The notes under the pieces were generated by a model. It did not search any database and was not told where the DNA came from. It was given only the letters and a program-made list of their open reading frames with translations. Of a stretch of DNA of 25,913 nucleotides, positions 2,737-24,925 are shown piece by piece. Positions within the stretch are counted from its first letter, which is position 1, and each line of letters starts with the position of its first letter. Origin of the DNA: a virus. The stretch lies in the IMG/VR virus record IMGVR_UViG_3300013126_000211, positions 1 to 25,913 of that record; one strand, written 5' to 3'. A program made the translations under genes and the position numbers.

Positions 2737-5621
2737 TGGCAGACATACTAACATACTCTATGAGATCCACTTTTGCTAAAGAATTTTATCAAAGTTTGAT
2801 TGATCCGGCATCCAATGATCGTTATTACATGTTTTTTGGAAGAGCAAAACCTTGGGATGGTGATACTCCTGTTTTGAAAGACACAATAAAAGAACAAAAC
2901 GAAGCAAAAAGAAATTGTGTTTTTTATCAACAAATAATTCCTTCAGATGTCTCGTTGATCGTTCCAAGGTATAATTGGACATCTGGTGAGATATACGATC
3001 AGTACGAAGACGACGAGGAACTGTGGAAAAATAATAAAAAATTCTATGTTCTTGTACAGGATTTAGAACAATATAGCGTTTACTTGTGTCTTTCAAACAA
3101 CGGTGGTCTACCATCTACAGAAGTACCATCTGGAACAGACACGGAAGAAATATTCACAGCGGATGGATATATTTGGAAGTACCTGTATACTCTTACTAAT
3201 GAGATGGAGCAGTTCCTGACCAGTACATATATTCCAGTTGTCATCTTGGATAAGTTAGTATACACGGATGAAAGAGCAACTGCATTAAATGTAAAGGCAA
3301 ATGCGAGCAACGGAACTATAGAAAAGATTGCTGTTGATACTAAAGCAATATTTACAAATCTTGTAAATAGCAATTTTTTATCCAATTCATATGAAGTTCT
3401 TACAGTGGATCCAACCGATCCTCTGACATTTAGCATATCTCTTTTATCTCAGCATTCTTCCACCAATAATTTTTATAATACAAATTACATAGTTTATTTT
3501 CAAAATGGAAAAGTAGGTACAATAGACACATATAGTGTAAATGCAGACGGAACTGCGACTATTTCTCTATGTGAGATTTATCCAGATGACGGTACTAATA
3601 TACAGTCAGGTGATGTGTATAGTATTCTACCAAAAGTTAATGTCGTGGGAAATGGAACTGGTGCTGTTTCTGTCCCAGTTTTTGATTCTAACTCAGAATT
3701 ACAAGAAATAACGGTTTTAAGTGGAGGATCTGGATATAATTTTTGTGAAGCATTTTTCTTAATTGAGACTAGTGCAGTTTTGAGTGCAATTATACCACCA
3801 GACGGAGGACATGGATTTGATTTTTCTAATGAATTGAAACCTACCAATATTCTAATAAGAAAACAAACTACATTCGGTGCTATACCAGACGATCAAGAAA
3901 AATATTTTGGTGCTGGTAGTTATATTCGTCAATATGGTATAGTAAAAAACATAAAAACAATAACTGATCAAAATCCTGATCAGATCAGTAATGAATATGA
4001 TATGGTTTTGAAGTATGACGGTCTTGCTATTTATGGAACAATATACGGAGATAAAGAGGAATACACTTTACCATACTTCAGAACTATCAATAAAGTTCAG
4101 GTTAGTGCAGATGACAGTAGTAAATATAATAATTTTTACAGAATTGGTGATTTTTTTCAGTCAACAGATCGCTCGGCGCCTGAAAAAATATGGACAGGTC
4201 AATTGGTGGCAAAAGAACCAATAAATACCAACCCAAACCATTATATTCTTTATTTTTCTCAAGATTCTCAAAGTGGTTCTTTATATAGTGGGGATGGAAC
4301 ACTTACAAATGTAACTCAAACAACTGAACAATCTGAAGGTAGTGTTACAACTGAGATTGTATACACAAATTTATTTCAAGGTATTCAAGTTAGTGAATTG
4401 GAGGCATATTTATGCCTAAGTAATTTTGACAACAATCAGGGTCAGTTATTAGGAGCGTTTGACTTCGTCTATCCATCTAATACTTATACATTTAATGTAA
4501 ATGATGTGCTAAATTTACAAAATAAAACTTATGGATCTATAGGTACATACAAAATATTAGAAATAATTACGCCTGGTTTTTCTTCAATTTTGCCATTTAA
4601 TGCAACCCCATTACCTTCCAATAGAGTTTCGACTACATTAAGATTGGAACCACAGACTCTAGATTTAAATTTCTTACAAAATACTCAAAGTTCCCCTGTT
4701 CCAGATGTTATTCAAAATATAACACAGAATAATAGTTTGGATTTATTGGCAAATTCGAATTTTTTCTTCTCTAATCCTGTAAATTTTTTATATTATAAAG
4801 ATAAACAAACCAGATTTTTAATTGAATTTGATTCATCCGATATTGTATTTTCCTCTCAACAAACAGCCCCCGCAACTGCACCTACTCATATTATTGGAAA
4901 TGATACTTTAGCAATTTCTACTATAAAATCTTTGTCTGTGGATCCTAATGATACTTTTAAATTTAATATGAAAATAATGTCACCTACGGAAGACTACGAG
5001 CAGGCAACTATAAGTAATGGAAATGTTATTTCTGGCGAAGCAGTGACTTTACTCAGACAAGAAACATATAACGGATTTACTAACAGATTCGCTAAGATAG
5101 GCGAAACTAAAAATCTATATGTTTTGTCTGAAAATTATGATGTAAGTTCTCCTGTCAATTTACCAGAAACCATAACATCTTCTGTTGTATCGAAAATTAC
5201 ATTAAGTAGAACAGGTTCTGTTGTTTTAAATAATGGAATAATTCCAATAGGATCTTATTTATACAGAGAATCTACAGAAACCGTGGATTCTGCTGCTGGT
5301 TATGTGGTATCCATAGACACATCTACAGATAGTGGAGGAAATGCTACAAATTATGCTTATGTACAGATGGAAAAAGGAACATTCTTAACAGGAGATACCA
5401 TCAAGTGTGTAGTAGATCCTTTTGTGAAGAATATTTCTTTGTTCAACAACACATGTGCCGGTAATACAGGAGTAACTGTTACAGTTTCTGCTCCCGAGCA
5501 GAGATTCAATTCTCTTTTCTTGAATAAATATTCTGGAGAAGTTCTCTATATACAAAACACAGATCCTATACAAATGGCAACAGACACAAACTTTACGACC
5601 AGAATTCTTCTGGGATTCTGA
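2736..5621 (+). CDS. 8: Baseplate wedge protein gp8 with large internal expansion
   Basis: Both ends match T4 gp8 (334 aa), the dimeric wedge protein that joins gp7 to gp6. The N-terminal part has YYMFFGRAKPW at about residues 31-41, then IPRYNWTSGEIYDQYEDD and DGYIWKYLYTL. The C-terminus, YSGEVLYIQNTDPIQMATD and on to the final ILLGF, parallels T4 SGEMIYMENRPPIIMAMD and its end. Between these lie roughly 600 extra residues, beta-rich and Asn/Ser/Thr-rich, including a GGSGY motif at 330-334. This middle is far more AT-rich than the ends: a spot count at 4741-4800 gives 12/60 G+C, against 25/60 at 2941-3000. The start overlaps the gp7 stop by one base (TAATG). The gp8 identity is well supported; the origin and role of the expansion are unknown. 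Confidence 0.87.
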   Translation: MADILTYSMRSTFAKEFYQSLIDPASNDRYYMFFGRAKPWDGDTPVLKDTIKEQNEAKRNCVFYQQIIPSDVSLIVPRYNWTSGEIYDQYEDDEELWKNNKKFYVLVQDLEQYSVYLCLSNNGGLPSTEVPSGTDTEEIFTADGYIWKYLYTLTNEMEQFLTSTYIPVVILDKLVYTDERATALNVKANASNGTIEKIAVDTKAIFTNLVNSNFLSNSYEVLTVDPTDPLTFSISLLSQHSSTNNFYNTNYIVYFQNGKVGTIDTYSVNADGTATISLCEIYPDDGTNIQSGDVYSILPKVNVVGNGTGAVSVPVFDSNSELQEITVLSGGSGYNFCEAFFLIETSAVLSAIIPPDGGHGFDFSNELKPTNILIRKQTTFGAIPDDQEKYFGAGSYIRQYGIVKNIKTITDQNPDQISNEYDMVLKYDGLAIYGTIYGDKEEYTLPYFRTINKVQVSADDSSKYNNFYRIGDFFQSTDRSAPEKIWTGQLVAKEPINTNPNHYILYFSQDSQSGSLYSGDGTLTNVTQTTEQSEGSVTTEIVYTNLFQGIQVSELEAYLCLSNFDNNQGQLLGAFDFVYPSNTYTFNVNDVLNLQNKTYGSIGTYKILEIITPGFSSILPFNATPLPSNRVSTTLRLEPQTLDLNFLQNTQSSPVPDVIQNITQNNSLDLLANSNFFFSNPVNFLYYKDKQTRFLIEFDSSDIVFSSQQTAPATAPTHIIGNDTLAISTIKSLSVDPNDTFKFNMKIMSPTEDYEQATISNGNVISGEAVTLLRQETYNGFTNRFAKIGETKNLYVLSENYDVSSPVNLPETITSSVVSKITLSRTGSVVLNNGIIPIGSYLYRESTETVDSAAGYVVSIDTSTDSGGNATNYAYVQMEKGTFLTGDTIKCVVDPFVKNISLFNNTCAGNTGVTVTVSAPEQRFNSLFLNKYSGEVLYIQNTDPIQMATDTNFTTRILLGF

Positions 5622-5633
5622 ACGGAGATATAG

Positions 5634-7628
5634 ATGACTTTCAAGAACCCTGACATTCTTTCCAATGCACCATATTATGATGACTTTAATGAAGCAAAGA
5701 ATTTTCTTAGAACTTTGTTCAAGCCAGGATATGCCGTACAGGCAAGAGAACTGACACAATTACAGACGGTATTGCAGTCTCAAATTTCTAGATTTGCAGA
5801 TCATATCTTTGCCGATGGTTCTCAGGTATTTGGTGGAAAGGTGTTCGTTACAAACACCAATTTTGTCCGTGTAGAACAGTTTGTGTATAATATAAGTGGA
5901 ACGGTTTCCGCAGTTACCTCAGAATCCATACTTGAAGCAAATGTGTCGGAAATAGTAGACGAAACTGTTTCTAACGATGACACCTACACATCAAATAGAC
6001 TTACAGGAACTCTCGATAAACTATCTGTCCAGATATTCAGGGGTGGAGTTAGCACTGGAACTATAATTCTCAATCATTATATTCCTTCTTTTGATAACGG
6101 AGTCGATGACTATCCAGTAATATTCTTTGCAGATGTTACTGGAAATGAAGGTATTCTTCCTGGCGATCTTTTGAAAATCAACGATACTACATGTTTCAAG
6201 GTCATAACACCATCTACACAAGCACAGAACATCTATACGATTTCACCAACTGGTTCCGCTTCTCTGGTAAAGGTAGATGCTGGAATCTACTATGTCGATG
6301 GAATGTTTGTAAGAAACCGCTCGCAGATACTTGTTCCATACGACATTTCTATTGCAGGACAAGCAGAGGAAAGTTACGAGTCTGGAAACTACAATTATAC
6401 AAATGTTGAGGCAAATGTAAGATTGTTCACCGCTCCTTCTGTTAGAGTTGGTTTGTATTTGAATAGACAGGTGGTATCGGTTGATGAAGACAATACACTA
6501 AGAGATCCTTCGAATGGAATATACAATGCAAATGCACCTGGCGCAGATCGCTATAAGATAAGTTTAGATATAAAGCAATATCCATACGATCCGCAGGATG
6601 TGAGTGTTGCAAACTATGCAAATGAAGATTTCATTCAGTTGGCAAGAATAGTTAAGGGTAGATTGGATTGGATTCGTATACTTCCCAACTATTCCCAGAT
6701 ACTAGATTTGTTTGCTAGAAGAACATTCGATGAATCTGGTTCATATACTGTCAGACCATTTGGTCTTGAAGTAAAGAATCACTTGAGAAACGATGTTTAT
6801 TCGTATGTCGTAGAATCCTCTCCAGATGTAACAACATCCGAGCAATATATCGAAGTTGGTTCGTATGTCTGGACAAATCAAAACATAAGTGATCCTAGAC
6901 AATCTGGATTTGATTTTGATGCTCAAGCGATAGGTATTGGTGAAATAGTCGGAGTCGTACCATTCAAAGAATTGGCGGTAGGTACTGCACAGCAGACTCA
7001 AGGTTCTACATCCAAGATTGTTTATGTAAAATTAAAGAACGATAAGAGAATAGATCTAGGATCTTTGGATCCAAATTCATTCGGTGTGGTGAAATTTGCA
7101 AGACCTAGTCAGTCTTTCAACACCAGTACCCTGAAACTAAGATTCCAAAATTTTATAATAGACAGCACTGGTACATATTCTGTTTTCGATCTTCCTGTAG
7201 GTGATGCTAATCTAATGAATCTTGCAGTTCAGCCTGGAAAAGCATATGTGTACGGTTATGAAACGGAATTGACCTATCCTAAGAATATTGATTATGATAA
7301 GGGTTTGGATTTAACAAAGAATACACAATCTCAGACGGTAAATCTAAATTCTTCTTCTATTTTGGGTAACTATCTAGTCTGTAGTTTTGCCAATGATCCA
7401 GTTACGGCAGTTCCTGATTGGGAGAAGTTGCCAAAATTTGAACTACAGACTTCAGATATATTTACTCTAGTTTTGGAAGAAACAGATCTAGTACAGGCAA
7501 ATGCCGAAATACTATATTGGAGTCCCTATAAATATTGGTCAGATACATCGACTAACTATATGATCGGATTACCAACAGGGTTAGAAGAAGAGAAATACGA
7601 AAGCGTTATCTTCATAGCAGATCAATAA
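5634..7628 (+). CDS. DUF4815-family virion structural protein (N-terminal-type half)
   Basis: This 664-aa protein begins with the typical DUF4815 signature of T4-like marine phage structural proteins: YYDDFNEAKNFLRTLFKPGY, then QARELTQLQTVLQSQI (residues 14-51), followed by a FADHIFADGS segment. Further motifs I associate with the family are GIYYVDGMFVRNRSQ, APGADRYKI (~301-309), FDESGSYTVRPF (~365-376) and GKAYVYGYETEL (~535). The domain is found in large baseplate/fibre-associated proteins; the exact position in the particle is not established to my knowledge. It follows gp8 by 12 nt with an upstream CGGAGA ribosome binding site. It ends in TAA, and a second in-frame TAA lies at 7641-7643. 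The next gene is in the same frame and carries the motifs that usually follow DUF4815, so the two may be halves of one ancestral gene. Confidence 0.75.
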   Translation: MTFKNPDILSNAPYYDDFNEAKNFLRTLFKPGYAVQARELTQLQTVLQSQISRFADHIFADGSQVFGGKVFVTNTNFVRVEQFVYNISGTVSAVTSESILEANVSEIVDETVSNDDTYTSNRLTGTLDKLSVQIFRGGVSTGTIILNHYIPSFDNGVDDYPVIFFADVTGNEGILPGDLLKINDTTCFKVITPSTQAQNIYTISPTGSASLVKVDAGIYYVDGMFVRNRSQILVPYDISIAGQAEESYESGNYNYTNVEANVRLFTAPSVRVGLYLNRQVVSVDEDNTLRDPSNGIYNANAPGADRYKISLDIKQYPYDPQDVSVANYANEDFIQLARIVKGRLDWIRILPNYSQILDLFARRTFDESGSYTVRPFGLEVKNHLRNDVYSYVVESSPDVTTSEQYIEVGSYVWTNQNISDPRQSGFDFDAQAIGIGEIVGVVPFKELAVGTAQQTQGSTSKIVYVKLKNDKRIDLGSLDPNSFGVVKFARPSQSFNTSTLKLRFQNFIIDSTGTYSVFDLPVGDANLMNLAVQPGKAYVYGYETELTYPKNIDYDKGLDLTKNTQSQTVNLNSSSILGNYLVCSFANDPVTAVPDWEKLPKFELQTSDIFTLVLEETDLVQANAEILYWSPYKYWSDTSTNYMIGLPTGLEEEKYESVIFIADQ

Positions 7629-16600: not shown

Positions 16601-18051
16601 AAACTGGACAAACATATACACCAACCCATTTAATCATGGATGAGGTTTATCTCTCGTCTTCAAGTGGTGTCTATAACAATATTGATGTAATTACTTCTTA
16701 TTCCTCAAGTACCGATACTTTGACTACAAGTTTTGATCTTGGTGTTATGCCACAAAGATCAGTTAAAGTCGCTGGGTCTGCTTACAACAACGGTAGAGGT
16801 GGTTACTTAGCCAGCAATCTGATTCTGCAACAAGGTCATGTTCTTGGTGTAACTACAACTGGAACTGCTGTATCGAGCATACCATTCTCCACTGTAGTTC
16901 AGAATTCTGGTCTTAGTTACTACTATTCCGCTAGTGTAGATGGTTACAACATCTATTCTTCGGGAGCAAGTCAACTGAAGTTTGTTTCTGGTGGAAATGT
17001 ACAACTGTCCTATGATGGAACCAACATCGTAATAACTTCAAACACAGATGTGCAGAGCGATACTACTCCTACTTTGGGTGGAAATCTGGAACTAGATTCC
17101 AAGTTCTTCACACAGGGAGCCAAGAAATCTTTAGGACTTACCAATTCTCTGACATATACCACAAATCATTATCTTAATGTTAAAAATGCTGTAAATAAGA
17201 TAGAACTTGAAGTCATAAGAGACACATCAGTTGCCACTGGTATAGACATAGTTATGACTCCATATGGTACAGGTTCTGTGGTGTCTCCAAGATTCTCTTC
17301 TGATGCCATAAACAATTTGACTCTGAAGACAGGAACCAGTGATGGTAAAATAGTGGTGGATGGTAATGCTTCTACATCTACAACAATATCTGCTACTGGA
17401 AGTAAAGCACTTTACCTTGCTCCTGGCACAAGTTCAAACGACATAGCGTTACACTTCGATAATGGTGTTTCCGCTAGAACTATTATTGCAAGAAGATCGA
17501 CTAACGATCTTGGTGTTCTCCACACGAGTCCACTTGGAAACTTGGTGCTGGCAGCAGGACACATCTCAACTGGAATTTCAACTGGAGCGAATTATATTCA
17601 AATGAATTCCAGCGTTCTGATGAACTCTAGCAAGACAATAGGTTCTCAAGATAATGTGATTAAGATTAACGCCACTGATAGTGGTTATCTAAAACTATCT
17701 GGAACCAACAAATCAGTTTCTCAGAAAGTTTCGTCCACCAGCATGATTACTGCGACTAGCAGAATCATCGACACATTCAAGATTTCCAGTATAGGGACCA
17801 GCATGAAGTATGTGGTGAGAGGAGAAAATCCTTCTACAGCCACAGATAAATTCCTATTGGAGTTTAATTTGATTATTTCTGGAACTGAAGTTGTAAGTGA
17901 AGTTATTTCCAGAATATATCCTGCTGCTGCGACAGGAACCACAAAAGGTGTAGTTCCATCCGTAGTTTCGGACGGAACCGATGTGGAAGTGTCCCTAAAT
18001 ACGATAGACGGAAACTATACCGTAACTGTTTACAGAACAGCACTACTATAA
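13612..18051 (+). CDS. Repeat-rich tail fibre protein (1479 aa)
   Basis: The N-terminal segment LNDTFYTWYNTTNIIIDALN (about residues 23-42) is the short helical anchor common at the start of fibre and gp10-like proteins in T4-like marine phages. The body is built from beta-rich repeats of the type 'GpGI...S..I.I.A' (GPGITVTKISGG, GSNISLSTNTSNEIIITAG, GVGINITSSTNNDIVIEA, GPGIELEGIEG, SGGNVQLSYDGTNIVITS). A larger repeat, 'SVK...LG...', recurs about three times near residues 630-750, 870-930 and 1045-1100. The motif TPTLGGNLELDSKFF is typical of phage fibre shafts. The C-terminal ~60 residues (GTTKGVVPSVVSDGTDVEV and on) resemble terminal domains of other marine phage fibres. It occupies the slot of T4 genes 10-12/wac, upstream of gene 13. 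An AGAGGAAA ribosome binding site precedes the start, inside the previous gene. The receptor is unknown. Confidence 0.8.
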   Translation: MSTNTDDIISGGLFAPIEPLKLNDTFYTWYNTTNIIIDALNPLAIYDVAAGPGITVTKISGGVGVVSVNAGCGLKFDTNISLTLDISGTQESSTVQEEDYYIFEQYGGTNITTDSGDCETLFKVQATNILPYFVSGDHDFLGGDTSLFKVSSTNFEIDSNNVEFKTTNIYLNNNPTTTDDGYEDRQNIAFVGFTVHAGDEEPTFGYDGSILAWKSNQNFAVTSDRSYVSDSAGSDASFRFSTKTASQQNVSLKLLTGSRESDIDAGKIFRMEAIDSINKISFHFDDENTTFGEVSMFSASYNQALDRTEFQIQGTAYIRDIEDSSQFLTVSDSTAYKVPITNTNGVLDYKFTNRFVSSNYSPTLVVGDVVRFEYSDNTNTTEDIDVVAAQADTESNSRTVGVVESISGGKITVALNGVCNRTSVTSGQVYYLSQTLAGKVTSTKPTSGIVKEVFVGVDTSKVLIFGTSTLQTPNFGSVLVDGGDTVESTTYGDTLSLVAGSNISLSTNTSNEIIITAGALIDADYWTTISTDTGAPNEIAASGPGQQAFILGGNGASTEATGPDTIVVNAPNSYGIIEIVGENTDELDYTLTASSGSDTLTIRSGVGINITSSTNNDIVIEATGLSVPANRSITNQKLALMESYSVKGAQLNGEPIDIYQQEEVHEITYPVLASYYDVYYGTDGERVYRDPVTLIEYPSLTSEVLESSTPVGTPNAVSGFVIGRVVDEEGNVSDLKTLNRKELRLILGASSTGFLEENNKLFNAWQLYDYSDILTSIDSETAEGKSGTLRFVAGPGIELEGIEGVAGSTSKSIKITATGDAAAFSTITNVTTAESLLAAGVGSTLNISERDAVGIDVTSNNELDFYIKSGGITNDMLTGMPENSVKVNTGGTNDTTPVDLYIDENQILGRLEDGFVKALSGSEVRQIIGLTSSDYYKAISCYTGATLSGTANAASTETLILRGGTNISLTVLGDSSIRIDATTDSSMYGIKTISFSETGQTYTPTHLIMDEVYLSSSSGVYNNIDVITSYSSSTDTLTTSFDLGVMPQRSVKVAGSAYNNGRGGYLASNLILQQGHVLGVTTTGTAVSSIPFSTVVQNSGLSYYYSASVDGYNIYSSGASQLKFVSGGNVQLSYDGTNIVITSNTDVQSDTTPTLGGNLELDSKFFTQGAKKSLGLTNSLTYTTNHYLNVKNAVNKIELEVIRDTSVATGIDIVMTPYGTGSVVSPRFSSDAINNLTLKTGTSDGKIVVDGNASTSTTISATGSKALYLAPGTSSNDIALHFDNGVSARTIIARRSTNDLGVLHTSPLGNLVLAAGHISTGISTGANYIQMNSSVLMNSSKTIGSQDNVIKINATDSGYLKLSGTNKSVSQKVSSTSMITATSRIIDTFKISSIGTSMKYVVRGENPSTATDKFLLEFNLIISGTEVVSEVISRIYPAAATGTTKGVVPSVVSDGTDVEVSLNTIDGNYTVTVYRTALL

Positions 18052-18055
18052 GGAG
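18051..18055 (+). promoter_or_regulatory. Strong Shine-Dalgarno that favours the second of two tandem ATGs
   Basis: AGGAG begins at the last base of the fibre stop codon. It is 3 nt from the ATG at 18059 and 6 nt from the ATG at 18062, so 18062 has the better spacing and is preferred as the start of the following gene. Confidence 0.6.
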
Positions 18056-18061
18056 TTTATG

Positions 18062-18418
18062 ATGAAGGTTAGTTTAGGTGAAATCTATATGTCCACTTCG
18101 ACAATGAATAAGTTGATCGACGCTTCTCTTCCTGCCAAATTGTCCTTTAGATTGGTTAGAGCCATGAGGGAAATGAACGATGCACTTAAGAATCTGGAAG
18201 AAGAACGAACCAAATTAATCAAAAAATACGGCAAGGATAACGGAGATGGAAATATTACTGTTTCCGAGGAAAATAAAAGTCAGTTTTTAGAAGAATTTAG
18301 CAATCTATTGACCGAAGAAATAGAAATACAATGGGAGCCAGTAGATCCAGATACACTTGGAGATATGACTCTCAGCGTAGGTGATATTGCAAAAATTGGG
18401 TTCCTCTTCAAGCAGTAA
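18062..18418 (+). CDS. Small conserved-type phage protein of unknown function (DUF1617-like)
   Basis: A 118-aa protein (119 if the upstream ATG at 18059 is used). It has an N-terminal KVSLGEIYMSTSTMNKLIDA helix, a basic/acidic helix (REMNDALKNLEEERTKLIKK), an acidic middle and a short C-terminal domain ending LSVGDIAKIGFLFKQ. The pattern of LPAKLSFRL, followed by a Lys-Lys-Tyr-Gly turn and an EEN/EE-I-E-I segment, recalls small DUF1617-type phage proteins. That resemblance is from memory and not certain. It has a strong ribosome binding site and sits between the fibre gene and the gp13 promoter, so it appears to be the last gene of the upstream transcription unit. No membrane segment or signal peptide is seen. 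The role is unknown; an assembly or virion accessory function would fit the context. Confidence 0.65.
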   Translation: MKVSLGEIYMSTSTMNKLIDASLPAKLSFRLVRAMREMNDALKNLEEERTKLIKKYGKDNGDGNITVSEENKSQFLEEFSNLLTEEIEIQWEPVDPDTLGDMTLSVGDIAKIGFLFKQ

Positions 18419-18425
18419 CTTTTCA

Positions 18426-18459
18426 TCTCCTCAATTATAAATAATAGAAATTGAGGAGA
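18426..18459 (+). promoter_or_regulatory. Hairpin that can sequester the gp13 ribosome binding site
   Basis: A perfect 11-bp inverted repeat: left arm TCTCCTCAATT at 18426-18436, right arm AATTGAGGAGA at 18449-18459, loop of 12 nt. The right arm contains the Shine-Dalgarno GAGGAG (18453-18458), 5 nt before the gp13 ATG at 18464. In RNA reading through from upstream, the hairpin would hide this site. No T-tract follows, so it does not look like an intrinsic terminator. The repeat is seen directly; the RNA effect is inferred. Confidence 0.7.
18436..18443 (+). promoter_or_regulatory. T4-type late promoter (TATAAATA) driving gp13 onward
   Basis: An exact match to the T4 late promoter -10 consensus TATAAATA (cyanophage late motif NATAAATA), in one of the few intergenic spaces of the window. 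With T4 geometry (-13 to -6), transcription would start at about 18449, the first base of the right arm of the surrounding inverted repeat. The transcript would then lack the left arm and leave the gp13 ribosome binding site open. It is the only exact TATAAATA I found on the + strand outside coding sequence. Confidence 0.75.
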
Positions 18460-18463
18460 GAAA

Positions 18464-19279
18464 ATGACACCAACATCGAGAGAACAACTCAAACAGTATT
18501 GCCTAAGAAGACTTGGGTATCCTGTCATAGAGATCAATATAGACGATGCTCAGATAGAGGATCGTATAGATGATGCTTTGCAGTTTTTTGCAGAGTACCA
18601 TTTCGATGGTGTCGAAAGATGTTATCTCAAGAAGCAAATAACCCAAGACGACATAGATAACCGTTATATTGACTTATTGGAACCAACTGTAGCGGATCCT
18701 GCCAATGGTATAGAAGCCGCACCCGCTTTGGATCCTGATGGTAAGTCGATCATAACGGTTATTCGTTGTTTTCAATTATTTGATACTCTAGGTGGAACGG
18801 GTATGTTTGATGCTCGCTACCAGATTGCGCTCAACGATTTATATGGTTTGAGAACCAACACCTACAGTAATTCTCTGATTGGTTACAACTACACTCGTTC
18901 TCATATGCAGTTGTTGCAGGACATGCTTACTCCAGAAAAAGCAATAACATTCAGCAGAGTAACCAATAGAATATATGTCGATATGGATTGGACTACACAC
19001 GCAACCATAGGAAACTATATGATGTTCGAAGCATATAGAGTTCTTGATCCAGAGACATATGGTGAAATATACAATGATCGTTTGTTGAAACTCTATACTA
19101 CTGCCAAGATAAAGGAACAATGGGGAGCAAATCTGTCCAAGTTCTCTGGCATATCTTTGGCAGGCGGAATCACTTTGAATGGACAGGAAATATATTCAGA
19201 TGCTAGACAGGAAATAGAAAAATTAGAGAACGAAGTCCAGAGTAAGTACGAAGCACCACCAAACTTCTTCGTTGGATAA
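18464..19279 (+). CDS. 13: Neck protein gp13
   Basis: A 271-aa member of the T4 gp13 family (T4 309 aa). gp13 forms part of the neck that joins the DNA-filled head to the tail, with gp14 and the tail terminator gp15. The N-terminus shows the family hallmark: TSREQLKQYCLRRLGYPVIE, then INIDDAQIEDRIDDALQFFA and EYHFDGVERCY (residues ~3-55). Later segments include MFDARYQIALNDLY and RIYVDMDW. gp14 follows after 3 nt, exactly as in T4. The start at 18464 is fixed by a GAGGAG ribosome binding site and a late promoter just upstream. Confidence is high from both sequence pattern and position. Confidence 0.92.
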   Translation: MTPTSREQLKQYCLRRLGYPVIEINIDDAQIEDRIDDALQFFAEYHFDGVERCYLKKQITQDDIDNRYIDLLEPTVADPANGIEAAPALDPDGKSIITVIRCFQLFDTLGGTGMFDARYQIALNDLYGLRTNTYSNSLIGYNYTRSHMQLLQDMLTPEKAITFSRVTNRIYVDMDWTTHATIGNYMMFEAYRVLDPETYGEIYNDRLLKLYTTAKIKEQWGANLSKFSGISLAGGITLNGQEIYSDARQEIEKLENEVQSKYEAPPNFFVG

Positions 19280-19282
19280 TAA

Positions 19283-19975
19283 ATGGCAACAAATCCTTAT
19301 TTCAACAATACCAAGTATAAACCATCTCAGGATCTAATGGAAGATCTAATGATCGAATCTATAAAGACCAAGGGATTGGATGTATACTATCTACCGAGAA
19401 GATATGCAAATAAAGACATAGTTTTTGGAGAAGATCCTATGTCTTATTTTGATATTTCCTTTCCTATTGAAATGTATCTGGACACATTCAACGGATTTCA
19501 AGGTGAAAGAGAAATAGTATCTAAGTTTGGTATAGAGATACAGGACAATATGACTCTTACAGTTGCCAAGAAAAGATTTGAACAAGAAGCAGCAAAACTT
19601 CCAGCAATGAGTGATCGTCCGATTGATATAGATGCTCCTGCGATGGGAGATCTCATATACTTTCCACTATCCAAAGGTTTGTTTGAAATCAAGTATGTGG
19701 ACAATAAACAAGTGTTCTTTCAAGGTGGAAAATTGTACACATATAAACTCGAATGCGAACTCTTCAAGTATTCTATGGAAGAACTGAATACAGGAAACAG
19801 CGACATAGATGTAATCGAAGACAACATAGTTGGTACTGGTGATTCGGATGGTGATGGAACACCAGACTTCATAAAGGATATCAAGGGTGTCGATGATTCC
19901 ACTGATCTGCAACTAGAGGGATTGGATATCATAGATTTCACAGAAGTAGATCCTTTTTCCGAGGGTAACTACTGA
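19283..19975 (+). CDS. 14: Neck protein gp14
   Basis: A 230-aa member of the T4 gp14 family (T4 256 aa), which with gp13 completes the neck after DNA packaging. The start NPYFNNTKYKPSQDLMEDLM, the following ESIKTKGLDVYYLPRRY, and the later GDLIYFPLSKGLFEI and LYTYKLECELFKYS segments are characteristic. The C-terminus is acidic and contains DSDGDGTPD at residues 187-195, a loop with the spacing of calcium-binding DxDGDGxxD motifs. I do not know this to be a usual gp14 feature. It follows gp13 by 3 nt, and its TGA shares a base with the gp15 ATG. Confidence 0.92.
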   Translation: MATNPYFNNTKYKPSQDLMEDLMIESIKTKGLDVYYLPRRYANKDIVFGEDPMSYFDISFPIEMYLDTFNGFQGEREIVSKFGIEIQDNMTLTVAKKRFEQEAAKLPAMSDRPIDIDAPAMGDLIYFPLSKGLFEIKYVDNKQVFFQGGKLYTYKLECELFKYSMEELNTGNSDIDVIEDNIVGTGDSDGDGTPDFIKDIKGVDDSTDLQLEGLDIIDFTEVDPFSEGNY

Positions 19976-20649
19976 TGTTTACAAATTTCTATCATGGACT
20001 TATAAGAAAAACTGTAATTTCCTTTGGAACACTGTTCAACAATCTGTACATAAACAGAACCGATGGACAGGGAAGAAATCAAAAGATAAAGGTTCCTTTG
20101 GTCTATTCTCCCAAGGAAAAGTTTATGCAAAAACTTTCACAAAGTTTTGCAGATCTAGAAAATCAAGCCACACAGATAACTCTACCCAGAATGTCTTTCT
20201 CGATATCAAACATGCAGTATGATCCAGAGAGAAAAAAGAACAGCATTCAGAAAAGATATAAGGAAACTGTGACTACCAGCGGTGACATGGAGTTTTCATA
20301 CCATCACTGCAATGTTCCTTACAATCTAGAATTTACCTTGTCTTCTTATGTCCGAAACATGGACGATGGACTACAGATCGTCGAGCAGATACTTCCTTAC
20401 TTCACTCCAGAATTCACGGTCACGATAAAGCCAGGTGTTCTTGGTGATTCTTATGAAAAACTCGATATACCTATAGTGCTTACTTCGGTCACTACCGAGG
20501 AAAAGGCAGAGGGATCTTTATTGACCGAATCTACTAGATTCATAACATGGGATATGGTTTTTGCTGCAAAAATGATGATCTATGGACCGGTCAAGACATC
20601 ACCCCTTATTCAGAACATCGACGCAAACATATTCAGGTTGGAGGATTAA
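19975..20649 (+). CDS. 15: Tail sheath stabiliser/tail completion protein gp15
   Basis: A 224-aa homologue of T4 gp15 (272 aa), which forms the ring that caps the tail tube and sheath and provides the docking site for the neck. The N-terminal FYHGLIRKTVISFGTLFNNL, then KVPLVYSPKEKFMQKL, and the middle QIVEQILPYFTPEFTVTIKP are close in pattern to T4 gp15 (VPITYASKEHFMMKL, QIVEQILPYFQPHF). It is about 50 residues shorter than T4 gp15, lacking the proline-rich T4 tail. It overlaps gp14 by one base and the next small gene by one base (TAATG). Confidence 0.9.
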   Translation: MFTNFYHGLIRKTVISFGTLFNNLYINRTDGQGRNQKIKVPLVYSPKEKFMQKLSQSFADLENQATQITLPRMSFSISNMQYDPERKKNSIQKRYKETVTTSGDMEFSYHHCNVPYNLEFTLSSYVRNMDDGLQIVEQILPYFTPEFTVTIKPGVLGDSYEKLDIPIVLTSVTTEEKAEGSLLTESTRFITWDMVFAAKMMIYGPVKTSPLIQNIDANIFRLED

Positions 20650-20921: not shown

Positions 20922-22841
20922 ATGAGATATAGAAGAGTAGGTAGTTTGTTTAAAAGAAACATCAATGTTTCCGAAGAAATAGGTCAAAATAAAAGAATAG
21001 TCATACCAAATCCAGTTACTTATACCGAAGCGGAAATAGCAGAGGAAAAGAAAAAATTAGATAGATTCTCCATATCTTCTGGTTCTGCCGTAATCCCAGT
21101 TGAGCCAGAAATAATATTAAATAAGATGAGTTATTTTTCAGATGATGGTTCTAAAATAGCATATTATACAAAAGGATCATCTGGTAAAAATATAACAATA
21201 TACTCTTTCAATTCTTCTACTTTAGTAAAAACATTTATTACACAGATATCAGTAAATTCTATACCATTCGAGTGTAGAACCACCGAAAAGTGTTTTGTGT
21301 CTAATGATGGTAAATATGTTTTATTGTCTGTTCCTTCAGTTAGTTCTTTATATTTTTACAGCACAGAAACTGGTTTTTTGATACAAACAATAACAGATGA
21401 TCAGACTAATTTTGGATCTATTATAGCGGTAGATTGTGATTTTAAAAGTATGGTAGTATCTACTTCTGATTTAAAAAGAGATCCTTTAATTACCGATACC
21501 AGATCTGTAGGTAATTCTGTATCGAGCATAATATGTGTATATAAAAGAAACTATAATAGTTCTGCTACACAAAAATTTATCAAAATACATAGTAGAACCG
21601 CATATGCTCCAATAATAGACAATTCTAGTAATGTATTACCATATCCATTTCCTTATGCTCTTGGATATGCTTTAGAAGTAATAGAACCTAATGTTTATTA
21701 TTTCCAAGGAGTTCATAGAACATCTGATATATGTTGCAAAGGAAATGTTTTTTCTTTAAGTTGTCTAGGGTTGAAAAACGATCAGTTAAATTATAAATGT
21801 AGATTTTGGAATTACGACTCTCCTAGATATTATTCACTAAGATCTTCTTTAACATCTTCTCAAGATAATTATTATTTAAAATTTAGTAAAGACTATGTGC
21901 CTGGAAGTGGTTTTTTAAGTAATATAAAAAATGATAGTTTTTATAATAACCAAACATATAAAAGCGTCAATAATATATCTTGCAAAATATTTAAAGTAAT
22001 AAATTCTATAGAGAACAAAGATAAAATAGACGGATCTGCATATTCTTCTTCTCCTATACCTCCAAATATGTTCATATCAGATATAGAAAATACTTCTAAT
22101 GTTTTTGATGATAATCTAAACAAAAAACACGAAATATACGCTTTGTATAATTACAGTTTATTTGATAATTTGTATAAATCTTTTGATAATTATGAAACAA
22201 TTTTTGATATTAGATCTGAGGAAATTGTTCACAGTAAAAATATATTAAATGATAATTATTGTTATTATATTACCGTTGTGATGACGAATGATATTAAAAA
22301 TATTAGAATACATCGTTATCCTATACACAGTTCAGATAATTTAAATATTTTTAATTATATTGATTATGTTTATAATGGTTTGGACTATGATATTTCTCCT
22401 AATGATCCATCAATCGGTTTGGTTAAAATTATTTTTAAATCTTCTGATAGAAATAATTTAGAAAATTGTTTTCTTTCTAACGATGATGTTAATAATATAT
22501 CTGGATATTCATTAAATATAGTAGGATATAATAAACCATTTTTAAGCAATCCGAGTTTGTGTTCGAATTGTGAATTTGATTTTGAATCAAATATCATGGA
22601 TGAAACTTTGCACAATTGTTTTGTGTCTAATCATTATATGTTTTTAAATTTTAATACAAAAACTATTATATTTAAAATAGAAAACGATGTATGTAAATCT
22701 TTAAAGTTTGTGACAGAAATAGACACTCTGAAAGAGTATACTTTTAATTATAATGAAAATGGTGAATTTTTTGGTAAATTGAATAAAATATATAAATTCA
22801 ATAGACAAACTAACGAAATAATAGAGAAAGTTAATTTATAA
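20922..22841 (+). CDS. Unrecognised 639-aa protein with beta-propeller-like repeats, AT-rich insertion gene 1
   Basis: No family is recognised. Residues 1-65 form a charged, helix-prone N-terminus (MRYRRVGSLFKRN, then EAEIAEEKKKLDR). After that come repeated beta-strand units with a turn: FSDDGSKIAYY at 72-82, FVSNDGKYVLLSV at 125-137, then VDCDFKSMVVSTS near 170-183. The ~45-55 residue spacing suits blades of a beta-propeller. The protein is rich in Asn, Ser, Tyr and Ile, with no signal peptide or membrane helix. Its DNA is markedly poorer in G+C than the neighbours (10/60 at 22321-22380; 15/60 at 21781-21840), suggesting separate acquisition. It shares one base with the start of the hydrolase gene (TAATG), so the two are likely co-expressed. 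A binding or structural partner of the hydrolase is a reasonable guess. Confidence 0.6.
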   Translation: MRYRRVGSLFKRNINVSEEIGQNKRIVIPNPVTYTEAEIAEEKKKLDRFSISSGSAVIPVEPEIILNKMSYFSDDGSKIAYYTKGSSGKNITIYSFNSSTLVKTFITQISVNSIPFECRTTEKCFVSNDGKYVLLSVPSVSSLYFYSTETGFLIQTITDDQTNFGSIIAVDCDFKSMVVSTSDLKRDPLITDTRSVGNSVSSIICVYKRNYNSSATQKFIKIHSRTAYAPIIDNSSNVLPYPFPYALGYALEVIEPNVYYFQGVHRTSDICCKGNVFSLSCLGLKNDQLNYKCRFWNYDSPRYYSLRSSLTSSQDNYYLKFSKDYVPGSGFLSNIKNDSFYNNQTYKSVNNISCKIFKVINSIENKDKIDGSAYSSSPIPPNMFISDIENTSNVFDDNLNKKHEIYALYNYSLFDNLYKSFDNYETIFDIRSEEIVHSKNILNDNYCYYITVVMTNDIKNIRIHRYPIHSSDNLNIFNYIDYVYNGLDYDISPNDPSIGLVKIIFKSSDRNNLENCFLSNDDVNNISGYSLNIVGYNKPFLSNPSLCSNCEFDFESNIMDETLHNCFVSNHYMFLNFNTKTIIFKIENDVCKSLKFVTEIDTLKEYTFNYNENGEFFGKLNKIYKFNRQTNEIIEKVNL

Positions 22842-24925
22842 TGCCTATTTTTAATACTCCATCTACTGGAATATACTCTACAGATCAACAAAGTGTAGGA
22901 ATATCTCCATTTATTTTTTCCGATAGTTTGAGCACTAGGGATGATATTTTTTTCTGCTCAGATCTTTCTTTTTTAAATTTTATCAGAATAAGGGCTGGTT
23001 TGTCTATTATAAATGATGTTTCATTAAATGAATATTCTTTATTGGTTTTTGTATGCGATGATGTAATTGATACAAATTTTGTCAATATATATTCTATTAA
23101 AACATTAAATTTAAATATAGTATCTAATTACTTAAATGCTAAAATAAATTCTAGTATGCCTAATCACGAAACTATGTGTGACACGATTTCTTATGATGAA
23201 GTTTTATCTTTGTGTAAAGAATATAAAATAATATTCAGAATAACTAATAATATTTCAAAAGATAAAGATATATTGAGTTTAAAAAATGGAGACATTTTAA
23301 ATAATTTTAAATTAATTTTAGACGGTTTGGACAGAGGACCTTATAGTGTAAAATTAGAACATATTGATATTTTAAGTCCTTTAGAATTTAATGATACTGA
23401 GCGTTTGAATGTATATACAAATACTCTGAGTATTTTTGGTTATGAAGGTATCAGAACTTTTTATCCAGAAGAAATATTGAATAGCAATAATCTTATGCCC
23501 ATGATCTGCATACAGCATGGTGTAGCACATGAACACCAAGGATATGACATATATGCATCTAAACTAGCATCTTATGGATATTTTGTTTGTATGTTACAAC
23601 AAGAAACATATGCTGGAAATTCTACAAAATTTGGAAATTATCATATTTTAGGAAAACTTAGACATTTAAAAAATAATATTAGTAAAATAAATTCAGGAAA
23701 GTTTAATAATAAAATTAATTTTAATAAAATAACATTAATTGGTCATAGTCAGGGTGGAGACAAAGTGTATAGTGCTTGCACAGAAGTTGGTATAGATCCT
23801 GACTCTGGAATAGATATAAACGATATAATGTGTCTTGTTTTGATAAATCCAGCAATTGCGTTTGAATTTTCTTTGGCTGGATTCAGAACATCAGCAGCAA
23901 CTCCAGAATCAACTTTTAGATTTGCCGCAGATGTTCCTTTACTTTGCCTTGCATCTGATCGTGACGATGCAGTTAAAAATATAACTTATGATTTTTTTGC
24001 TAACTATGGAATGGATGATAATTTTCGAAATAAAAATTACAAAAGAATAATTTCTTTTAGAAATACTCTACATGGAGGACCTATATTAGATTTTTCTTAT
24101 TTAAATTACATAGATGCCACTTTCGATCAAAATTTTGACAATAGAACTTATTATACTAAAAATTCCAAAGCAAATTCTATAAATTATGCAGCATCTTATG
24201 TTTTATATTTTTTAAGTATGTGCTTAAAACAAAAAATAAACTCATCGTCTATCATTACAAGCAATTTTAATATTGTTGAGAATGAAAATAAAATTAAACA
24301 ATGCATTTATACAATAGATCACGAAAAATCTTCAAATATACACACAATAATAGATGAATATAACAATTTAAGCCCAGATTTGACACACAGTGGATTGGAT
24401 TTTTTATTCCAGGCAACCGATGCACGAGATGTGTATCAGTCTTTTGATAATTTTGATGGTATTTTTACTAGAAGATCAAATGAAAACAGTGGAGGTATCC
24501 GTTTATCCTATACTGGTGATAGTTTTATTAGATATGATTCTGAATATGATTTTACAAACTGTAGATACTTAGAAATATATTCAGCACAAGTGCTGGATTA
24601 TAGCGGCACATATAATGATTTTTCTACAGATAAGAATTTTTGTTTACAGATTGTAGACGGCAGGGGTAATGAAGTATTGATGAGTAGCAAATTATACAAC
24701 AATGGTATACCAGTTCATATGAACGACACTCAGAATCACACAATTACTAAAAATCCTTTTAGTGTTACATGTCCTATTCCAATACGATTTAATATGCAAC
24801 ACATACAGCAAATAAATCCAGAGTTAGATCTGTCGGATATAAGAAGTATAATATTAAAATTTGGTCCTTCTTTTGGATCATCTACTGGTAGGATAGCAAT
24901 TTACAGAATACAAACAATCAATTGA
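22841..24925 (+). CDS. Alpha/beta serine hydrolase (esterase/cutinase/PAF-acetylhydrolase-like) with C-terminal beta-sandwich
   Basis: A 694-aa protein with a clear alpha/beta hydrolase core at about residues 200-420. The oxyanion-loop motif is QHGVAHEHQGYD (225-236), and LASYGYFVCML follows. The nucleophile elbow is GHSQGG with Ser303. The acid is probably one of Asp373/375/376 (ASDRDD), and the base is His411 (NTLHGGP). Order and spacing fit cutinase/PAF-acetylhydrolase/dienelactone-hydrolase relatives that cut esters. Residues ~490-694 resemble the galactose-binding-like beta-sandwich seen at the end of some bacterial hydrolases (FCLQIVDGRGNEVLMSSK, PELDLSDIRSIILKFG). Residues 1-195 are unrecognised. 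No signal peptide is visible, so delivery may be as a virion part or by lysis. The DNA is strongly AT-rich, like the upstream gene. Substrate is unknown: O-acetylated or ester-linked surface polymers, lipids and polyesters are all possible. Confidence 0.78.
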   Translation: MPIFNTPSTGIYSTDQQSVGISPFIFSDSLSTRDDIFFCSDLSFLNFIRIRAGLSIINDVSLNEYSLLVFVCDDVIDTNFVNIYSIKTLNLNIVSNYLNAKINSSMPNHETMCDTISYDEVLSLCKEYKIIFRITNNISKDKDILSLKNGDILNNFKLILDGLDRGPYSVKLEHIDILSPLEFNDTERLNVYTNTLSIFGYEGIRTFYPEEILNSNNLMPMICIQHGVAHEHQGYDIYASKLASYGYFVCMLQQETYAGNSTKFGNYHILGKLRHLKNNISKINSGKFNNKINFNKITLIGHSQGGDKVYSACTEVGIDPDSGIDINDIMCLVLINPAIAFEFSLAGFRTSAATPESTFRFAADVPLLCLASDRDDAVKNITYDFFANYGMDDNFRNKNYKRIISFRNTLHGGPILDFSYLNYIDATFDQNFDNRTYYTKNSKANSINYAASYVLYFLSMCLKQKINSSSIITSNFNIVENENKIKQCIYTIDHEKSSNIHTIIDEYNNLSPDLTHSGLDFLFQATDARDVYQSFDNFDGIFTRRSNENSGGIRLSYTGDSFIRYDSEYDFTNCRYLEIYSAQVLDYSGTYNDFSTDKNFCLQIVDGRGNEVLMSSKLYNNGIPVHMNDTQNHTITKNPFSVTCPIPIRFNMQHIQQINPELDLSDIRSIILKFGPSFGSSTGRIAIYRIQTIN

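Follow-up and report, generated by a model that had tools for sequence, protein, structure and literature searches.

A late promoter nested in a predicted Shine-Dalgarno-sequestering hairpin upstream of the neck gene gp13 in uncultured T4-like phages

In the 25,913-nucleotide viral sequence analysed here (the window), gp13, which opens the neck operon, is preceded by a T4-type late-promoter motif, TATAAATA, nested in an inverted repeat whose 3' arm carries the gp13 Shine-Dalgarno sequence (SD) (Table 1). The arrangement is conserved in relatives, with covarying arms, and the predicted accessibility of the SD differs between RNA reading through from upstream and RNA begun at the nested promoter. 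The element is probably a start-site-gated translational block that ties gp13 to its own late promoter and insulates it, by a mechanism that is already known in kind from T4. Polymerase arriving from upstream would transcribe both arms, and the read-through RNA would fold and bury the SD together with the first base of the AUG, leaving gp13 poorly translated. The late holoenzyme at the nested motif would produce an RNA with its 5' end at about 18449, lacking the 5' arm and with an open SD. In this way gp13 expression, together with that of gp14 and gp15 if they are coupled to it, would be bound to gp13's own late promoter, and gp13 would be insulated from transcription of the variable fibre and structural cluster upstream. 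That only RNA begun at the late promoter would be freely translated is well supported by the sequence.

Table 1. Coordinates of the gp13 leader element and the flanking genes in the window
Feature	Position	Strand	Remarks
119-aa ORF, phrog_1401, function not known	18059-18418	+	stop codon 18416-18418; directly upstream
Lower 5' arm of predicted RNA stem, UUUUC	18420-18424	+	from the fold; bulged A at 18425
5' arm (anti-SD), TCTCCTCAATT	18426-18436	+	upstream of predicted late +1
Late-promoter motif, T4 gp55 type, TATAAATA	18436-18443	+	exact sequence match
3' arm, AATTGAGGAGA	18449-18459	+	carries SD GAGGAG, 18453-18458
Predicted late transcription start	18449	+	T1+13, T4 geometry; inferred position
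Lower 3' arm of predicted RNA stem, GAAAA	18460-18464	+	from the fold; contains A of AUG
gp13, head-tail adaptor Ad2/neck protein, 271 aa	18464-19279	+	phrog_211, E = 7e-38
gp14, head closure Hc2	19283-19975	+	phrog_679
gp15, tail sheath stabilizer	19975-20649	+	phrog_227; start overlaps gp14 stop

The motif and the 11-bp perfect inverted repeat lie exactly where an earlier note on this DNA had placed them, and the right arm contains the gp13 SD as that note had said. Its description of the motif as lying in the hairpin loop was accurate as to nesting within the repeat, but the left arm ends on the first base of TATAAATA; similarly, the 11-bp arms were correctly drawn but the predicted RNA stem is longer, comprising 11 + 5 bp (18420 to 18464) with a UUUUC/GAAAA extension and one bulged A. 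Because this extension reaches 18464, the first base of the gp13 ATG in the window sequence, the A of the AUG is also predicted to be paired, so that in read-through RNA the stem would engage both the SD and this base. The T4-type late TATA box lies about one helical turn 5' of the start, positions -13/-12 being its first bases (PMC2988020), and it is the +1 predicted from this geometry that would remove the 5' arm from late RNA. The repeat is the sole perfect inverted repeat of at least 11 bp with a gap of at most 30 in the 25.9-kb window; first-order Markov simulations (n = 20) gave a mean of 0.3 such repeats and a maximum of 1. Folding of 18419 to 18466 yielded -17.2 kcal/mol (z = -5.1), and none of 200 shuffles was equally stable. 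The motif itself occurs in the window at chance frequency, with 3 observed versus 3.09 expected and thus no enrichment, and the case therefore rests on position and conservation. The other two TATAAATA sites, at 7527-7534 (+) and 5256-5263 (-), are within ORFs, which fits that frequency. An Rfam search returned two matches only, both far under the gathering score, and a tRNA search returned nothing relevant. Promoter and terminator scans likewise gave nothing relevant; the terminator scan was limited to loops of 3 to 8, and gp13-type stems are therefore invisible to it.

Conservation was assessed with 173 unique 70-nt gp13 leaders, taken from loci found by six viral-contig scans. Among the 54 unique leaders with tblastn bits of at least 390, NATAAATA was present 17 to 60 nt 5' of the ATG in 51; the other three (L294, L305 and L307) have no suitably placed NATAAATA, and by eye their stem is still present. 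In the whole set, 69 of the 173 leaders were left out because they had no NATAAATA at a suitable distance. The arms of the relatives diverge yet stay complementary, as in CTCCTCAATT/AATTGAGGAG, CTCCTTGGTT/AACCAAGGAG, CTCCCGAAAA/TTTTCGGGAG and CTCCGAAAAA/TTTTTCGGAG. When arms were swapped between clusters, the mean score was 18.8 for native versus 12.2 for swapped pairs, with only 23 of 63 clusters individually at P = 0.05, because the SD and anti-SD cores are common to clusters. Since these shared cores blunt the swap, covariation of the non-core pairs was counted instead, using a CTCC/GGAG anchor picked from sequence alone and scoring the six inner pairs beside the SD core. The 47 window-type leaders, less two without the anchor (L202 and L191), gave 45 leaders and 33 distinct arm sets, in which 87.4% of the inner cells were paired versus 52.9% in shuffles and 73 cells were compensatory versus 25.6 +/- 4.7; none of 2000 shuffles matched either value. 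Kinship among the sequences inflates shuffle tests of this sort, and the leaders were collected by searches that started from the window and its relatives. Pairing at the inner positions was poor in a few arm sets (L290, L296 and L201). Alignment of relatives, which the earlier note had proposed as a check, thus revealed compensatory changes that preserve the stem. A MAFFT alignment of this first geometry (30 of 39 distinct leaders) had its arms out of register and was dropped from the counts.

A second geometry is seen in other relatives, including L331, L061, L348, L359, L366 and L378: here the 5' arm and TATAAATA overlap, this arm stops close to the predicted -1, and its 3' partner adjoins the ATG. 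In the 16 of 24 listed leaders that were aligned, 86.1% of cells were paired versus 77.3% in shuffles, and both-side changes occurred in 6 of 9 pairs. None of 500 shuffles matched the paired cells, the both-side changes or the covariation score, and the signal was destroyed when the register was slid. Further pair types, on the other hand, were no more numerous than in shuffles (495 of 500 at least as high). Some second-geometry leaders (L348 and the L378 set) lack a clear SD; in these it is the start region, and not a good SD, that the 3' arm covers. The chance frequency of TATAAATA in the window would fit a fortuitous inverted repeat, but covariation in relatives, in both geometries, refutes that explanation, the fold z score of -5.1 also speaks against it, and we give it practically no credence.

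Predicted opening costs of the SD were consistent with the proposed block. In the window, opening the SD would cost 15.8 kcal/mol in read-through RNA versus 2.2 in RNA begun at the predicted +1, in line with the earlier note's expectation that read-through RNA would fold and block the ribosome-binding site (RBS) and that late RNA would be open. Costs were scored for 62 of 63 clusters, L348 being dropped for want of an SD. Across the 28 clusters with bits of at least 390, the medians were 11.7 for read-through versus 1.0 for late RNA, compared to 1.7 versus 1.3 in 77 control pairs of late motifs and ORFs other than gp13 (Mann-Whitney P = 4e-14). A difference of at least 5 kcal/mol was predicted for 23 of these 28 clusters, for 5 of 22 at 300 to 390 bits, for 1 of 12 below 300 bits and for 3 of the 77 controls, which indicated a property of gp13 within a clade, shared neither by late promoters in general nor by gp13 genes at large. 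A best-stem search run independently of promoter position on the 63 clusters placed 60% or more of the 5' arm upstream of the +1 in every one of the 28 clusters with bits of at least 390. The same held for all 21 clusters (of 35) below that bit score whose stem score was 14 or higher; in none of the 49 clusters (of 63) at that stem score was the 5' arm wholly inside the late RNA. Window-type late RNA is too short to hold the whole stem, and this comparison is therefore informative mainly for the second geometry. A null of random leader lengths was uninformative as to promoter position, the +1 falling strictly between the arms in 17 of 28 clusters versus a null mean of 15.9.

The TATAAATA sites in the records of the window and 22 relatives (140 distinct sites) were also scored for stems; 22 reached at least 18 and 10 reached at least 22, and 7 of these 10 belong to gp13. 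At the level of 22 the frequency was 7.1% for TATAAATA versus at most 1.4% for six compositionally similar control motifs or variants, apart from ATAAATA[ACG] (5.9%), in which most of the real motif is included. By this whole-contig search, nesting of late motifs in stems is thus not a general rule of these phages. In L088 (minus strand, 9600) and L090 (minus strand, 16014), a late promoter is nested in the SD hairpin of another gene, which encodes a collagen-like (GPP-repeat) fibre-type protein.

The isolates nearest by gp13 are the Pelagibacter phages Mosig and HTVC008M and the Methylophilales phages Melnitz, at 45 to 47% identity. By eye, none of 12 isolate leaders had a strong nested stem. 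The Mosig gp13 leader has a weak one, which ranks second at 3.5 kcal/mol, and in a scan of 138,800 of the 141,461 Mosig bases none of 22 late-motif/ORF pairs reached 5 kcal/mol. No strong nested stem precedes T4 gene 13; its leader (L455, 590-625) contains a GGGGCC-GCAA-GGCCCC hairpin just 5' of the SD, without a late motif.

The same scan applied to T4 served as a positive control, with 6 of 27 late-motif/ORF pairs reaching 5 kcal/mol. By the record annotation these precede e, I-TevI, I-TevII, 49, 26 and 51, of which e, I-TevI, I-TevII and 49 are published cases (PMC2988022, PMC3014915); e and I-TevI, to which the earlier note had likened the element, were thus both recovered. The divergent T4 genes 26 and 51 (NC_000866, about 116430-116478; L475) have one palindromic leader in common; it contains two late-promoter motifs, around which the SD of either gene is also the anti-SD of the other. 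The I-TevII leader resembles that of the window in having a short stem, a 5' arm immediately before or at TATAAATA and a 3' arm that contains the SD, with opening costs of 11.3 in read-through versus 0.3 in late RNA, but it belongs to an intron-borne homing endonuclease gene in nrdD rather than to a neck gene behind structural genes. In e, for which the published effect is about 100-fold (PMC3014915), and in I-TevI, the late RNA lacks the 5' arm, as predicted here, but the late promoter overlaps the arm, which ends at the predicted -1; this is the second geometry of the relatives and not that of the window, and the genes and their neighbours differ. RBS-sequestering hairpins like that of the window have also been described for T4 49, soc and segB and for Aeh1 mobE, on long late-gene transcripts (PMC2988022, PMC3014915); the genes again differ, and of these four only 49 was recovered by the T4 scan.

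Published accounts describe the transcripts bearing the T4 cases as early or middle (PMC2988022, PMC3014915), and the annotated neighbours or hosts of these cases are nudE, td, nrdD and pin. We considered a timing switch of the kind known from e and I-TevI, in which early or middle read-through is silenced until late promoters fire. The gp13 element shares its anatomy with e, I-TevI and I-TevII, whose upstream or host genes are nudE, td and nrdD, and in Mosig gp13 is preceded on the same strand by oxygenase and bilin-reductase genes. In the window, however, the same-strand genes upstream of gp13 encode baseplate wedge proteins, phrog_358 and phrog_877 proteins, a fibre-like protein of 1479 aa with no family match and the phrog_1401 protein; those with functional matches are structural (virion) genes, and a crude scan of 17900-18700 detected no plus-strand sigma-70-like promoter. 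A timing switch appears less likely than insulation. Since the recognisable upstream genes are virion genes, read-through RNA meeting gp13 would be mostly late RNA. The earlier note's suggestion of strict late timing for gp13 to gp15 and perhaps everything downstream is not supported, as worded, by this gene content; moreover, the effect of the hairpin would be local, silencing gp13 and any cistrons coupled to it and not downstream cistrons with their own RBS.

A phrog_1401 homologue adjoins gp13 in all seven long records, the window included (matches 39 to 90% identical), while only 4 of the 21 pairs of these records have related genes in front of phrog_1401. Virion genes upstream and a variable gene before phrog_1401 favour insulation over early silencing, and we infer that insulation is the purpose of the element. 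Homologues of the small and large terminase genes lie beyond gp15. Between gp15 and gp16, a 694-aa ORF (window 22841-24925) has by eye the sequence GHSQGG, which we take to be a serine-hydrolase-like motif; it has no PHROG or Pfam match, and neither has the 639-aa ORF that precedes it.

Under translational coupling, gp13 would depend, via the stem, on ribosomes finishing the phrog_1401 ORF. The window stop lies 7 nt 5' of the 11-bp arm and 1 nt 5' of the lower stem, and a ribosome terminating at 18418 could partially open the stem. It would probably free just part of the SD pairing, however, and in L142, L165, L146, L282, L331, L061 and L336 about 20 nt or more separate the arm from the stop codon and the stem is kept; coupling also leaves a late promoter inside the stem unexplained, and we judge it improbable.

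Another reading holds that the stem is chiefly a transcription terminator, with the next promoter in its loop and the SD overlap incidental. In 15 of 104 unique motif-bearing leaders, a run of at least six T follows the 3' arm just 5' of the ATG, which suggests a possible additional terminator role for the stem of those lineages. Terminator-like stems with TATAAATA in the loop exist in L120 (2117, +) and L117 (8990, -), where the stem is of 12 bp with a terminal T-run and the SD is not covered; that in L120 is located 5' of the head scaffolding gene (phrog_237). In the window, though, the stem is followed by GAAAATG, without the T-run of an intrinsic terminator, and an anchor search located [CT]TCC before the motif and GGAG after it in 45 of the 47 window-type leaders. 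A role chiefly as terminator is thus hardly to be expected, and the start-site-gated block is the reading that we prefer.

In a search of open-access papers, with subscription journals mostly outside its reach, no start-site-gated hairpin was found for gene 13 or any other neck gene, consistent with the earlier note, which knew of no such description. The text consulted in PMC2988022 and PMC3014915 does not report that the T4 cases insulate one late gene from other late transcription. More tentatively, the promoter-gated hairpin might be a compact insulator at a fixed border between a hypervariable fibre/host-recognition cluster and the neck-terminase operon, such that gp13 would be made only from its own late promoter whatever is inserted upstream, with the stem of some lineages also terminating incoming late RNA.

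Together, these results extend to a virion-assembly operon a switch described for a small number of T4 genes with roles in lysis or encoding nucleases and homing endonucleases, and the combination of a late motif with a difference in opening cost provides a simple scan that recovers the T4 cases. The covariation indicates that selection keeps the switch across uncultured T4-like phages. The predicted rule is that gp13 is made solely from RNA begun at its own late promoter, and neighbouring genes of the variable cluster could therefore be exchanged without altering the supply of neck protein.
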